Part shown: positions 25,221 through 35,119 of the stretch, in pieces
Position numbering within the stretch: position 1 is the first letter of the stretch
How the letters are laid out: each line of letters opens with the position of its first letter
Source: a candidate division CSSED10-310 bacterium
GTDB taxonomy: Bacteria; CSSED10-310; JAFGJC01
Reading direction: 5' to 3'
DNA length: 64,000 nucleotides
NCBI GenBank assembly: GCA_016927905.1
Contig: JAFGLW010000016.1
Location: 1 to 64,000, forward strand
Notes under the pieces: model-generated
Databases searched by the model: none
What the model was told of the DNA's origin: nothing
The model's input: the letters and a program-made list of their open reading frames with translations, nothing else
Program-made: the position numbers and the translations under genes

Positions 25221-27599
25221 TTGACTTCTCGATCCAATCAATTCCCGGTTTCTTCCACTTGGTTTCATGGTCTGCCCATTTGGACAACCGATCGACCGGC
25301 GGGCCTGATCGACCGAATCTGTCTTCGAACCAGAGCCTCCGGAATCGGCTTCCTGCCCCATGCTGAACGGGCACTGCACCGGGTTGCCGGCAAGTATCTG
25401 ATCATTTATGCATTTATCAGATCGATACCGTTCACCATCGAGTTGCTGAACCGGGCACTCCGGCGATCCCATCTACCTCCGTGCCGGTTCCAGGTCGCGG
25501 CGGGGAAAACGGTACCGGAACCTATTCGTTCCCTTGCGGATCCCCCCCCCGACTGTTCCGGATACATCCTGCTGGGCGACACTTTTTCCGGAGAAATCGC
25601 TCCCATCGAGATTCTGCTGGACTGGGTTCCGGCCCAGACGAGACCGGTCGTGGTAATCCCCATATTGAATCTGGCCGCCCGTGACCCGTTTCGGGTACGT
25701 TTCAACACATGCTGGAACACTTTCCGCTTCGGCGGACGCGGCCTGTTCAGCTGCGGCAACCCGGTCGACCTGAACCATCTGGAATCAACCGTGCGCAAAC
25801 CGTGGAATCCCGCACACATTCGGCGTCAACTGCTGCGATCCATCCTGCGCGAACACCGGGTAATTACGGGAAACATCCCCGAACCGCGTCGGCAGTTGAT
25901 CCGGCGTCTGGTCCAGAGTGACGACTTGCAGAATCTTATTCGCACAACCTCCCTAACAATGAAAACCCCGCCGGGAAAAACAAAAAGAAGCGTCGAATCG
26001 CTGATACGGGAAATCGCCACCGATTACCGGGATTTCTTTCCCCGGCTCTGGCGAATTGTCCTGGACCGATATCTGTTTCGCCTTTATGACAGTATTGAAT
26101 TCGATGAGTCTGGTCTGGAGCGGTTGCGCAGCACGATCCGGCAGAACAAAAAATGTATCCTGATTCCCACGCATCGCAGCCACATGGACTACATTACATT
26201 GTCTTTCGGGTGTTACCAGGAGGGTATCGCTCCGCCCCTGATCGCCGCCGGCAAAAACCTGGCTTTCTGGCCCATGGGATTCATTTTCAGACATACGGGA
26301 GCTTTTTTCATCCGGCGCAGCTTCAAGGGAATGGAGATGTACGCGAGGGTTTTCCGACGGTATGTTCTGGATCTGTTGCAGAAACCGCAGCCGATCGAAG
26401 TCTTCCTGGAAGGGGGACGGAGCCGTTCCGGGCGCCTTCGGCATCCGAAACTCGGTTTTCTGCGCATCCTTCTGGACGCTGTACAGGAACGACACATTTC
26501 CAATTTGACCCTGGTGCCCATTTCAATCAACTACGACCGTATTCTGGAAGAAGACAGCTATCTGAAAGAGCTTTCCGGTCAACCCAAATCGACCGAACGT
26601 TTGACCGATATGGTACGGAATCTCCACCTTCTGAATCGAAAACAGGGCGGCATATACATCACCGTCGGAGATCCCCTGGTTCTGGGGAGTGGAACCGGGG
26701 GAACGGAATGCGGTGTCGAGGACCGGGAGGAGATCGCGCATGAATTGATGTACCGACTCGGTGCCAACCTGGCCGTTTCACCCATGGCACTCATGAGCAC
26801 CAGCATTCTCAGGCTTCCCGGAACATCAATTGACGCGGCATCCATCCCCGAAACCATGTCGGAGTTATTGAAATATCTCAAAACGCAATCCTGCGCGTTT
26901 ACCGGCGACCTGAGTGATAATCCCGAGCTGGACCGGATCTTCCGTCGAACACTCGATTTTCTGATCCGGATACAGTATTTTGAACCCGAATCCCAGCTCG
27001 ATTCCGAATCCCGCCGTTTCCGGCTGAGACCGGAAGTACGGAAAAAACTCGATTATTCCAGGAACAGTCTGGCGATTCATATGATTCCGGTCGCAGTGGC
27101 CGGGCTGGCTGAAATCGAATCGATATCCGGCACGGAACTGCCAGAATTCATCGTGGGTCTGTTATGTCCCCACATGCATCCGGTCAATCCCGACAGGTTG
27201 GTCCCGGCGTTAAGATCTGCACGGGAATATCTCAAGGCAAAACCCCGTGACACAGCCACTCTTTTTGCGTCCTTTATCCTCCCCGAAATCAAGATCATCA
27301 AACGGGTCTATCGCTACTTCAAGCATTCCGTCGGACCCGGTTTGAAATTGGATTCGATCAGGCTCAAGACCCACATCGAGAAGGCACTGACCTTGCCGGA
27401 TATTGAGAAGGACTATCCGGAACGGTTCAATATTGAAACGATCGAATTTATCCGGAGGTGTTTTCAGGCACACCACATTCTGTTCAGGGAATCCTCAGGC
27501 CGATTCAGTTTCCTGCCAGCGCAACCGGATATCTGGGAACGTTTTGAAGTTCTTGTGCCGGATGAGCCTGCCGATCCGTCCGAACCACCTCCAACATGA
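25221..27599 (+). CDS. plsB: Glycerol-3-phosphate 1-O-acyltransferase
   Basis: Membrane-associated enzyme making lysophosphatidic acid, the first step of phospholipid synthesis. The acyltransferase block I HRSHMD (H-x4-D) is at about residue 315, followed by AGKNLAFWPMG, GAFFIRRSF and the substrate motif FLEGGRSRSG. PlsB proteins are about 800 residues; this one is 792. The start codon is apparently TTG 25221, since no ATG occurs before the conserved core; it has only a weak ribosome binding site. It uses acyl-ACP or acyl-CoA. The final 95 nt overlap the 3' end of the convergent ftsZ-like gene. Confidence 0.92.
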   Translation: MTSRSNQFPVSSTWFHGLPIWTTDRPAGLIDRICLRTRASGIGFLPHAERALHRVAGKYLIIYAFIRSIPFTIELLNRALRRSHLPPCRFQVAAGKTVPEPIRSLADPPPDCSGYILLGDTFSGEIAPIEILLDWVPAQTRPVVVIPILNLAARDPFRVRFNTCWNTFRFGGRGLFSCGNPVDLNHLESTVRKPWNPAHIRRQLLRSILREHRVITGNIPEPRRQLIRRLVQSDDLQNLIRTTSLTMKTPPGKTKRSVESLIREIATDYRDFFPRLWRIVLDRYLFRLYDSIEFDESGLERLRSTIRQNKKCILIPTHRSHMDYITLSFGCYQEGIAPPLIAAGKNLAFWPMGFIFRHTGAFFIRRSFKGMEMYARVFRRYVLDLLQKPQPIEVFLEGGRSRSGRLRHPKLGFLRILLDAVQERHISNLTLVPISINYDRILEEDSYLKELSGQPKSTERLTDMVRNLHLLNRKQGGIYITVGDPLVLGSGTGGTECGVEDREEIAHELMYRLGANLAVSPMALMSTSILRLPGTSIDAASIPETMSELLKYLKTQSCAFTGDLSDNPELDRIFRRTLDFLIRIQYFEPESQLDSESRRFRLRPEVRKKLDYSRNSLAIHMIPVAVAGLAEIESISGTELPEFIVGLLCPHMHPVNPDRLVPALRSAREYLKAKPRDTATLFASFILPEIKIIKRVYRYFKHSVGPGLKLDSIRLKTHIEKALTLPDIEKDYPERFNIETIEFIRRCFQAHHILFRESSGRFSFLPAQPDIWERFEVLVPDEPADPSEPPPT

Positions 27600-28551
27600 T
27601 CTCTCTTTCTGGAGCCGCCCCAACGATAATACCCAGTCTCAGAGTGCCATCCATTGACGGATCCATGGAAGCGCCGTAGGTAAGGTCGACTTCGCTGCCC
27701 CAGTTTTCACAGATCCAGGATGCTGCTTCATCGAGCTCGAAAAGTGTCAGGTCGTTGCCGGCCAGGAAATGAACGATGATGGATGCGGGACGCTTCATGT
27801 AGCTTGACAGGAGTGGATCGGCCAGGACCTGTTCGGCGGCTTTTCTGCCGCGTTCCCTGCCATCGGCTGAAGCGACTGCGATCGCCGTCGAAGTCTCCAT
27901 GGAAATAATATTCTGGACGGTGGACATATCAATGGATACCACACCGGTATCATAAAGCGCATCCATGACCACCTGAAGCTTTTCGCAAACAGATGCTTCC
28001 ATGGCACCGCCTGCAGAATCGGCGATCTCCTCAAAACCATTCGGGTGGTTCAAAATGATGCATCCATCAACCCATTTCCGGATCTCAGTCAGGGCCAGCT
28101 CGGCGCAAAGACAGCATTTCCGACCATGACGCGCCCGATCCGGCATGATGAGAAGCGCAAGGATGTTCATTCCCGATTGTTTCAGATGTCGGGTTATCAC
28201 CGGCATCACGCCTGATCCAACGCCGCCTCCCAGTCCAGCAACGAGAACGATGAACCCCTGATCCGGCATATGAAGATGGAGTTCCGGCAGAATTCTTTCG
28301 GCATCTCGCGAGGCGACAATCATGTCACCGCGGGGATGATTGGAGGAAATCGGATCCAGTGCAATGCACAACCCGGCTTCTGAATCGGTCAAAACATCAG
28401 CCCGATCGATGACGATCGGAGTCAGAGGACAGGCGGTCCGCCATTGAATCCGTTGCACCAGCCGACTGCCGACTCCCCCGACACCGACAAGAAGATTCCG
28501 GTTGAAGGATGATTGTTCACGGCCGCTTTCCCGGTTTCCACCGGTGTTCAT
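27505..28551 (-). CDS. Divergent FtsZ/tubulin-family protein
   Basis: The 348-residue protein follows the FtsZ GTPase fold: GVGGVGSRLV at residue 23 (FtsZ: GVGGAGGN), the tubulin signature variant GLGGGVGSGVMPVI at 106 (FtsZ: GGGTGTG), EIRKWVDGCIILNHP at 156, then SIDMSTV at 206 where FtsZ has the T7 loop N-x-D-x-x-D, AAEQVLADPLL, and GNDLTLFELDEAA at 265. The second T7 Asp, needed for GTP hydrolysis in FtsZ, is Thr. No linker or C-terminal FtsA-binding peptide is visible. ATG 28551 overlaps the mraZ stop (ATGA), with GGAG 8 nt upstream. The last 31 codons overlap plsB. Probably a filament-forming or regulatory paralogue, not the main FtsZ. Confidence 0.85.
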   Translation of the reverse strand: MNTGGNRESGREQSSFNRNLLVGVGGVGSRLVQRIQWRTACPLTPIVIDRADVLTDSEAGLCIALDPISSNHPRGDMIVASRDAERILPELHLHMPDQGFIVLVAGLGGGVGSGVMPVITRHLKQSGMNILALLIMPDRARHGRKCCLCAELALTEIRKWVDGCIILNHPNGFEEIADSAGGAMEASVCEKLQVVMDALYDTGVVSIDMSTVQNIISMETSTAIAVASADGRERGRKAAEQVLADPLLSSYMKRPASIIVHFLAGNDLTLFELDEAASWICENWGSEVDLTYGASMDPSMDGTLRLGIIVGAAPEREIMLEVVRTDRQAHPAQELQNVPRYPVALAGN

Positions 28552-28946
28552 GGTTCCGGCTCCATCTCCGGATACCGATCCTTCCAATCCGGTTGGGTCC
28601 ATATTTCAAAATCATGCCCTGCGCCGACGAGAATCATGGTGTCACCTCCCTTGAAATTTGGAAAATCGGGGATTTTCAGCCTGCCCTGTGGATCCACGTG
28701 AACGGTTTTGACCGGAGCCATTGCCAGGCGTCGGATTTCGCGAATCTCTGCATCGTCGTCGTCACCGGATGCGATGGAGGTGAGATGGTCCCTGAGTGAT
28801 TGTTCGACAGTCAAAATAAGATAATTTTCGTTGGCGCGGACATAAAGGGTAGCGCTTCGCGCCATCGATTCACGCCGGAATCCCCTTGGCAGGATGATCC
28901 GTCCAAGCTTATCCACGGGACAGATAAAAAGCCCGGTATATATCAT
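28548..28946 (-). CDS. mraZ: MraZ-family transcriptional regulator
   Basis: The 132-residue protein has two SpoVT-AbrB-type halves, as in MraZ: VDKLGRIILPRGFR near the N-terminus and VDPQGRLKIPDF at about residue 83, then the MraZ-typical MILVGAGHDFEIW. MraZ forms ring oligomers that bind direct repeats upstream of its own gene and often represses the dcw cluster. Here the next gene is an ftsZ-like gene rather than rsmH, joined by an ATGA overlap. It could be a paralogue of a genuine mraZ elsewhere. A consensus promoter lies 54 nt upstream. Confidence 0.9.
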   Translation of the reverse strand: MIYTGLFICPVDKLGRIILPRGFRRESMARSATLYVRANENYLILTVEQSLRDHLTSIASGDDDDAEIREIRRLAMAPVKTVHVDPQGRLKIPDFPNFKGGDTMILVGAGHDFEIWTQPDWKDRYPEMEPEP

Positions 28947-30707: not shown

Positions 30708-30771
30708 TTTTTGTTGAGCTCGAGGCAAGCCGAAAATACCTTGCAGCTCTTTCAGATAAGGAGTTTCAGGA

Positions 30772-31974
30772 ATGAAAACACGCTGGGCATTTGGAATCAT
30801 CACATTCAGTTTCGTAGCGCTGCTGCTGACACTGGTTATCGCGAACATGTCTGACGCGAACCGAACCGAACCGAAACAGCTGGCGGCTTCCCGCAATGAA
30901 ACAATGGTCGCGGATGGATCCGCACCCCAATCTCCTCCATCGGTTAAAGGACCGCATCCCATCATCAGGTTTGAAGAAACGGTTCACGATTTCGGAACAC
31001 GGATTTCCGGTGAAGATCTGGAGCATATTTTCAAGTTTCAAAACATTGGTGAAACCGATCTGGTGATCGACAAGGTGAGAGGCGGGTGAGGCTGCACGGC
31101 GGCCTTGGTCTCCGACAAGGTCATTCCCCCGGGCGGGGAAGGAAAGGTGCAGATCAGATTCAAAACCAAGAACAAACATGGAAAATCGAGTCAGAAAATC
31201 ACGGTAACATCCAATGATCCCACGCAACCCAGTCTCAATCTCGAAGTTCAGGCGGAGCTTGAGGTTTATTTCGACGTATCACCCAGGCGCTTGTATTTCG
31301 GCCGGGTCAAACCCGGTGAACGGATTACCAAGACGCTGACCTTCACCGGAAAGGAGATCGGATCGATCCGGATCAGGGACATCAAGATCGAGAATCGGGA
31401 TGCATTGAACTATGTTCAGTGGAAACTCCATGACGATCGAACCGGGGAAACCGGAATCTATACAATGGACATCACCCTGGATCCCGGAAAAATCAAACCG
31501 GGGCGTTTCACCGAAAACCTGATTATCGTCACCGACAGCAAGGTTGTTCCGGATCTCACTTTCAACATCTCCGGTGAGATCCTCGGACCGATATCCGCGA
31601 CGCCCCCCCGGATTTATTTCGGCAATTACGAACCAGGACAATCCATGGCTCGCTCCGTGAAAATTGAATCCTCCTCCGGTAGACCGTTCCGGATTCTCAG
31701 TGCAACAATCAATCATGATTCTTTGAAAGCCAGCATTTCAGACTCATCTCCCAAGACGGTGCACATGCTTGAAGTAGTTCTGGACCCCGACATCAAGCAG
31801 GATCGATTCCGGGCGGAACTCATCGTGAAAACCGATCTTGCGGAGCATCCGGAAATCGAGATTCCCATAAACGGATATAAGCAGCGGGAACGGACACATA
31901 CCCGGACCTCCGAAGGCGGAGTCGGCACCATGAAATCTTCTGCCGATCAGTCCCGGGCGGATCAGACCCTGTGA
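30772..31974 (+). CDS. DUF1573 domain protein with predicted selenocysteine (UGA at 31087-31089)
   Basis: Reading through the in-frame TGA gives a 400-residue protein. Residues 7-25 form a signal or membrane anchor. The first DUF1573 domain starts at about 65: FEETVHDFGTRISGEDLEHIF, then VIDKVRGG-Sec106-GCTAALV. DUF1573 normally has C-G-C-T exactly here, so UGA replaces the first cysteine. Two further Ig/ASH-like repeats follow (RRLYFGRVKPGE at about 170, PPRIYFGNYEPGQ at about 280). TGA is used as an ordinary stop by other genes here. A bSECIS-like hairpin starts 11 nt after the UGA, and tRNA-Sec lies at 35024. Alternatives are a nonsense mutation or two genes, but the downstream part has no start of its own. 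Function unknown; a periplasmic redox role is inference. Confidence 0.85.
31087..31122 (+). promoter_or_regulatory. Predicted bacterial SECIS element
   Basis: The recoded TGA is at 31087-31089. After 11 nt a 7-bp stem follows: GGCCTTG (31101-31107) pairs with CAAGGTC (31116-31122), with one G-U pair and the 8-nt loop GTCTCCGA. The GGTCT at the stem-loop junction equals the loop core of the E. coli fdhF SECIS, and the 11-nt spacing is the same. Such a hairpin binds SelB. Confidence 0.75.
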
Positions 31975-35023: not shown

Positions 35024-35119
35024 GGGAGCGGATGGTGTCTGGTGATGCCTCCTGACTTCAAATCAGGCAGGGGGTCCTGACCGGTCCCCGGTGGGTTCGA
35101 TTCCCATGCGCTCCCGCCA
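35024..35119 (+). tRNA. selC: tRNA-Sec (anticodon TCA), selenocysteine tRNA
   Basis: The acceptor GGGAGCG pairs with CGCTCCC; the eighth position expected for this tRNA is G-G. The D-stem has 6 bp (GGTGTC/GATGCC) with a 4-nt loop TGGT, a tRNA-Sec hallmark. The anticodon stem CCTGA/TCAGG encloses CTTCAAA, the same loop as E. coli selC, with anticodon TCA reading UGA. A long variable arm (35070-35089) has a 7-bp stem. The T-arm is GTGGG/CCCAT, discriminator G, and CCA is encoded. It needs SelA, SelB and SelD, none of which is in the window. Confidence 0.93.

Follow-up and report, generated by a model that had tools for sequence, protein, structure and literature searches.

We analysed a 64,000-nt stretch of DNA (hereafter the window) from a candidate division CSSED10-310 bacterium and found in it a DUF1573 gene whose in-frame UGA at codon 106 is almost certainly decoded as selenocysteine (Sec), as judged from the Sec machinery of the genome, a hairpin 3′ of the codon and the alternation of Sec and Cys among homologues. 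The protein belongs to the Sec-containing DUF1573 branch that is already listed (OS_HP2 type), and we find no support for a selenoprotein of a new kind. The present analysis adds the breadth of the family, the Sec/Cys alternation, the hairpin statistics and the synteny with tRNA-Sec.

A DUF1573 gene interrupted by one UGA

The features of the window that bear on this reading are the following:
30758..30763, + strand: Shine-Dalgarno-like AAGGAG, 8 nt 5′ of the ATG at 30772, read directly from the sequence
30772..31974, + strand: putative Sec-containing DUF1573 gene of 400 residues with Sec at 106; a hydrophobic N-terminal segment, then Ig-like domains
30964..31254, + strand: DUF1573 domain spanning the UGA (PF07610 match with one TGA inside)
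31087..31089, + strand: in-frame UGA, read as Sec106, the first residue of Sec-Gly-Cys-Thr; same site in all 24 aligned UGA homologues
31101..31122, + strand: SECIS-like hairpin with a 7-bp stem and an 8-nt loop, G first; loop centre about 22 nt past the UGA
31124..31140, + strand: second hairpin, TTCCCC-CGGGC-GGGGAA, in which relatives show compensatory changes
35024..35119, + strand: tRNA-Sec gene (ARAGORN; Rfam RF01852, 76.8 bits, 35024-35115)

The open reading frame has a single internal in-frame TGA and ends in a TGA at 31972-31974. A sequence-only reading of the window had put the internal UGA in the very place of the first Cys in the C-G-C-T motif of DUF1573 proteins, and both its coordinates and its description were right. 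It had also claimed that reading through restores the motif, the length and the downstream homology, and our results agree: the read-through protein carries G-Sec-G-C-T-A-A-L at the expected place, matches Pfam DUF1573 over residues 65-160 (98.3 bits vs a cut-off of 26.1), and is as similar to its UGA-containing relatives downstream of the UGA as upstream (for example, 44% identity over 284 aa downstream vs 39% over 75 aa upstream). The 290 codons 3′ of the UGA contain no further stop or frameshift, and their conservation is normal. Start signals for a separate downstream protein, said to be lacking, are indeed lacking, the only possible start being a TTG at 31105 that has no ribosome-binding site and lies within the conserved domain. 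At the N-terminus, a helix is predicted at residues about 8-29 (low confidence); the N-termini of relatives have a lipobox-like Cys or are hydrophobic.

Sec machinery and Sec/Cys alternation among homologues

The three genes on which the sequence-only reading had made its case depend are all present in the genome, with scores above curated cut-offs (selA: 577 bits; selB: 350 bits; selD: 342 bits), and so is tRNA-Sec, which lies on the same contig, 3 kb downstream of the DUF1573 gene. The selD gene (G000:C25:148819-149751, L009) itself contains a single TGA in frame, which probably makes SelD a selenoprotein in this genome. Across genomes, tRNA-Sec was matched strongly (at 60 bits or above) in 17 of 19 verified UGA carriers vs 16 of 40 genomes with only Cys copies among the matches listed (Fisher P = 3e-4, related genomes being non-independent). 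The two carriers that have no strong match are G003 (60% complete) and G197 (98% complete). In G197, the UGA copy is at L112:2328-3095 on the minus strand and the best tRNA-Sec match has E = 3.2e-6, which might reflect contamination, a tRNA that escaped detection or an unusual tRNA-Sec.

Searches for DUF1573 covered 8 genomes of the phylum, 60 relatives and 386 genomes, and returned many copies with one internal TGA. In all 24 distinct UGA copies that were aligned (18 genomes, window copy included), the TGA falls on the same Cys codon, which excludes chance placement. A 25th copy, in G242, has its TGA at the same site in the context G-Sec-G-C-N, and carrier genomes number 19. One TGA match in G144 (L116) was excluded from the UGA set, its DUF1573 frame being unreadable. 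The window's genome has a second UGA-containing DUF1573 gene (G000:C28:100704-100997, L002), whose UGA occupies the same Cys of the motif and which is 33% identical, as well as a Cys-type paralogue with Cys-Gly-Cys-Thr (G000:C19:79063), which shares the domain and the length class of the Sec form and differs in having Cys at the site. UGA and Cys versions are thus present side by side in one genome, and a one-off sequencing error is very improbable. In two related genera, UGA-containing DUF1573 genes occur in tandem, two in each (L067 4293-6671; L068 7485-9894).

Sec/Cys alternation, which the sequence-only reading had proposed to look for with UGA-aware searches, was found. On a tree in which 24 domains have Sec and 29 have Cys (109 columns, Sec/Cys site masked), the state changes nine times, and at least six of these changes are forced by well-supported branches; gains and losses of Sec are indistinguishable on this tree because the domain is short and several branches are long. 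The residue before the site is Gly in 18 of the 24 Sec forms, and Ser, Gly, Asp or Thr in Cys forms. Two distant Cys homologues came from a contig scan with a peptide pattern that fixes Cys at the Sec site, so that UGA copies were outside its reach.

Hairpins 3′ of the UGA and rival readings of the codon

Bacterial SECIS elements have a loop layout like that of the hairpin at 31101-31122 (GGCCTTG-GTCTCCGA-CAAGGTC), with G first in the loop and the loop at that distance from the UGA. Its stem score is significant against synonymous shuffles (P = 0.010). Among homologues, the mean stem score is higher in Sec copies than in Cys copies (14.0 vs 10.6, Mann-Whitney P = 6e-4), and folding energy, measured against the same kind of synonymous shuffle, points the same way (mean z = -1.46 for Sec vs -0.61 for Cys). 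When 13 UGA copies were aligned over the two named helices, changes on both sides of a pair occurred in 16 cells vs 7.0 in shuffles, and slid controls were lower. The window's own 60 nt are unremarkable (dinucleotide-shuffle z = -0.22) and their minimum-energy fold differs from the hairpin, whose support therefore comes from comparison among homologues. In the second hairpin, 93.6% of cells are paired and two pairs are changed on both sides, and RNAalifold recovered this hairpin alone, without the first. Its strength did not differ significantly between Sec and Cys homologues, and it falls within conserved Pro-Gly codons; its role as a functional element is suggestive only.

A decaying pseudogene, or a UGA created by sequencing or assembly error, would fit a lone stop in one draft genome, and the assembly is indeed a draft of 31 contigs. 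We consider either very improbable given that 24 homologues, drawn from independent assemblies, have the UGA at this very site, that the genome has a second gene with the UGA, and that the 290 downstream codons are intact and normally conserved. Two outcomes that the sequence-only reading had named as refuting do not fit these data well: an error with TGC or TGT in other assemblies is at odds with the recurrent UGA and the same-genome paralogue, and relatives that share the UGA show normal downstream conservation and, on average, stronger hairpins than Cys copies. Certain uncultured bacterial lineages are known to recode UGA, and a genome-wide reassignment (e.g., to Trp or Gly) would yield a residue other than Sec. 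That explanation is more improbable still: UGA terminates the DUF1573 gene itself, all parts of the Sec machinery are encoded in the genome, homologues show Cys at the site and neither Trp nor Gly, and no further read-through genes are evident within the window. The selenocysteine reading, in contrast, is backed by the Sec machinery, the Sec/Cys alternation, the 3′ hairpin and recurrence in several lineages.

Family membership, gene context and proposed function

A "DUF1573 domain-containing protein" (PF07610, motif UGC) stands among the bacterial selenoproteins in PMC9312934 (2022) and PMC13188914 (2026), and the 2022 review credits it to Zhang and Gladyshev (2007), from an Olavius algarvensis symbiont; OS_HP2 (pfam07610, UxC) is listed for ocean samples (PMC2398784), and NCBIfam has a model, NF041425, under the name "OS_HP2 family (seleno)protein." The sequence-only reading had suggested that such a protein has no counterpart among listed bacterial selenoproteins, which was mistaken: DUF1573 with UGC is in these lists, NF041425 carries the OS_HP2 name, and the family is thus known. 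The window gene has the features of the published Sec-DUF1573 (UGC) entries, namely PF07610, UGA at the first Cys, Sec machinery and a SECIS-like hairpin. It has the same domain as NF041425 and matches the model over profile positions 2-97 of 98 (E = 7.4e-26), with a score of 90.4 bits that is slightly below the cut-off of 100, so we take it as a divergent OS_HP2 member that is clearly related. Over the 386 genomes, the cut-off was passed in one, by a Cys copy, and the UGA copies among the matches listed all scored lower. The window protein thus shares with OS_HP2 the DUF1573 domain and Sec in place of the first Cys of CGC but, going by the descriptions, is set apart from OS_HP2 of the Olavius algarvensis symbiont as part of a different small group (8 species in the phylum); several of its relatives have two UGA paralogues per genome, unlike OS_HP2 as described.

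The window's DUF1573 gene stands alone, flanked by an amidohydrolase and a porin. The neighbours of Sec-DUF1573 are conserved in four genera of two families (window, L067, L068 and L069), with tRNA-Phe and tRNA-Sec nearby. Elsewhere in the window, positions 27505-28946 encode a divergent FtsZ-like protein beside a MraZ-like one, the Pfam tubulin match starting from profile position 55; FtsZ-like/MraZ-like pairs seem to be present in the same block of L068 and L069. In more distant lineages, Sec-DUF1573 is adjoined by CcdA, a TlpA-like thioredoxin, a membrane-anchored rhodanese and MauE (L120), by MauE and thioredoxin (L112), by MsrB (L109) or by a NapC/NirT-type cytochrome (L110). Neighbours were counted at 22 loci with Sec, 24 with Cys and 20 control regions. 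The thioredoxin/rhodanese/MauE/CcdA/MsrB set occurs at three of the 22 Sec loci, all of them sources of search seeds, and at one of the 24 Cys loci, and there was no overall enrichment of redox neighbours near Sec copies relative to Cys copies and controls. Because these neighbours are confined to three seed loci and one Cys locus, they support a functional reading weakly.

Sec106 and Cys108 are the sole Sec/Cys residues of the read-through protein, which makes chemistry of the Sec-Cys pair most likely. Codon 106 would be decoded by SelB with Sec-tRNA, aided by the adjacent 3′ hairpin, and the product would be membrane-anchored and outside the cytoplasm. Most likely, the pair would form a reversible selenenylsulfide in the Sec-Gly-Cys turn, or Sec would act as a nucleophile with Cys108 as the resolving residue. 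The protein would then serve as an extracytoplasmic partner in thiol/selenol redox or sulfur handling, a function of Sec106-Cys108 that we hold with moderate confidence. Its electrons would probably come from a CcdA/TlpA-type thioredoxin system, to judge from gene context in a few relatives. A periplasmic redox centre, as the sequence-only reading had proposed, is plausible. The single-sequence AlphaFold model (pLDDT 39) gives no structural support to the Sec106-Cys108 geometry; a search of the sequences of solved structures with the single protein returned no matches, and one with a profile returned one weak match (2qsv_A, E = 0.0032).

The Sec-Gly-Cys might instead bind a metal or metalloid, or be structural, with no redox exchange. 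Such a role would suit a pair carried on an Ig-like domain without a thioredoxin fold, and the rarity of redox neighbours. However, replacement of Cys by Sec at one fixed position is typical of redox-active sites, and MauE, TlpA, CcdA, rhodanese or MsrB adjoin the gene in three lineages; we regard a metal-binding or structural role as unlikely, with some weight left to it. A membrane-anchored Sec-DUF1573 protein with a redox pair and a thioredoxin-type reductant is, taken as a whole, the likely explanation. It is rather doubtful, on present data, that Sec-DUF1573 proteins are an extracytoplasmic group far broader than one would gather from the lists in print and from NF041425, extending over many lineages with Sec and Cys exchanged repeatedly, with a two-hairpin SECIS region in the window's lineage and with a role as Sec-Gly-Cys redox partners of CcdA/TlpA-type systems.

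Comparative data from 19 genomes now back a selenoprotein family that is otherwise a table line in the lists we found. The curated NF041425 model misses the Sec members of the family in the genomes searched, and gene callers will truncate Sec-DUF1573 genes or call them pseudogenes. Finally, alternation of Sec and Cys on a fixed Cys-Gly-Cys points to this pair as the probable active site of a domain that occurs very widely and whose function is as yet without a name.
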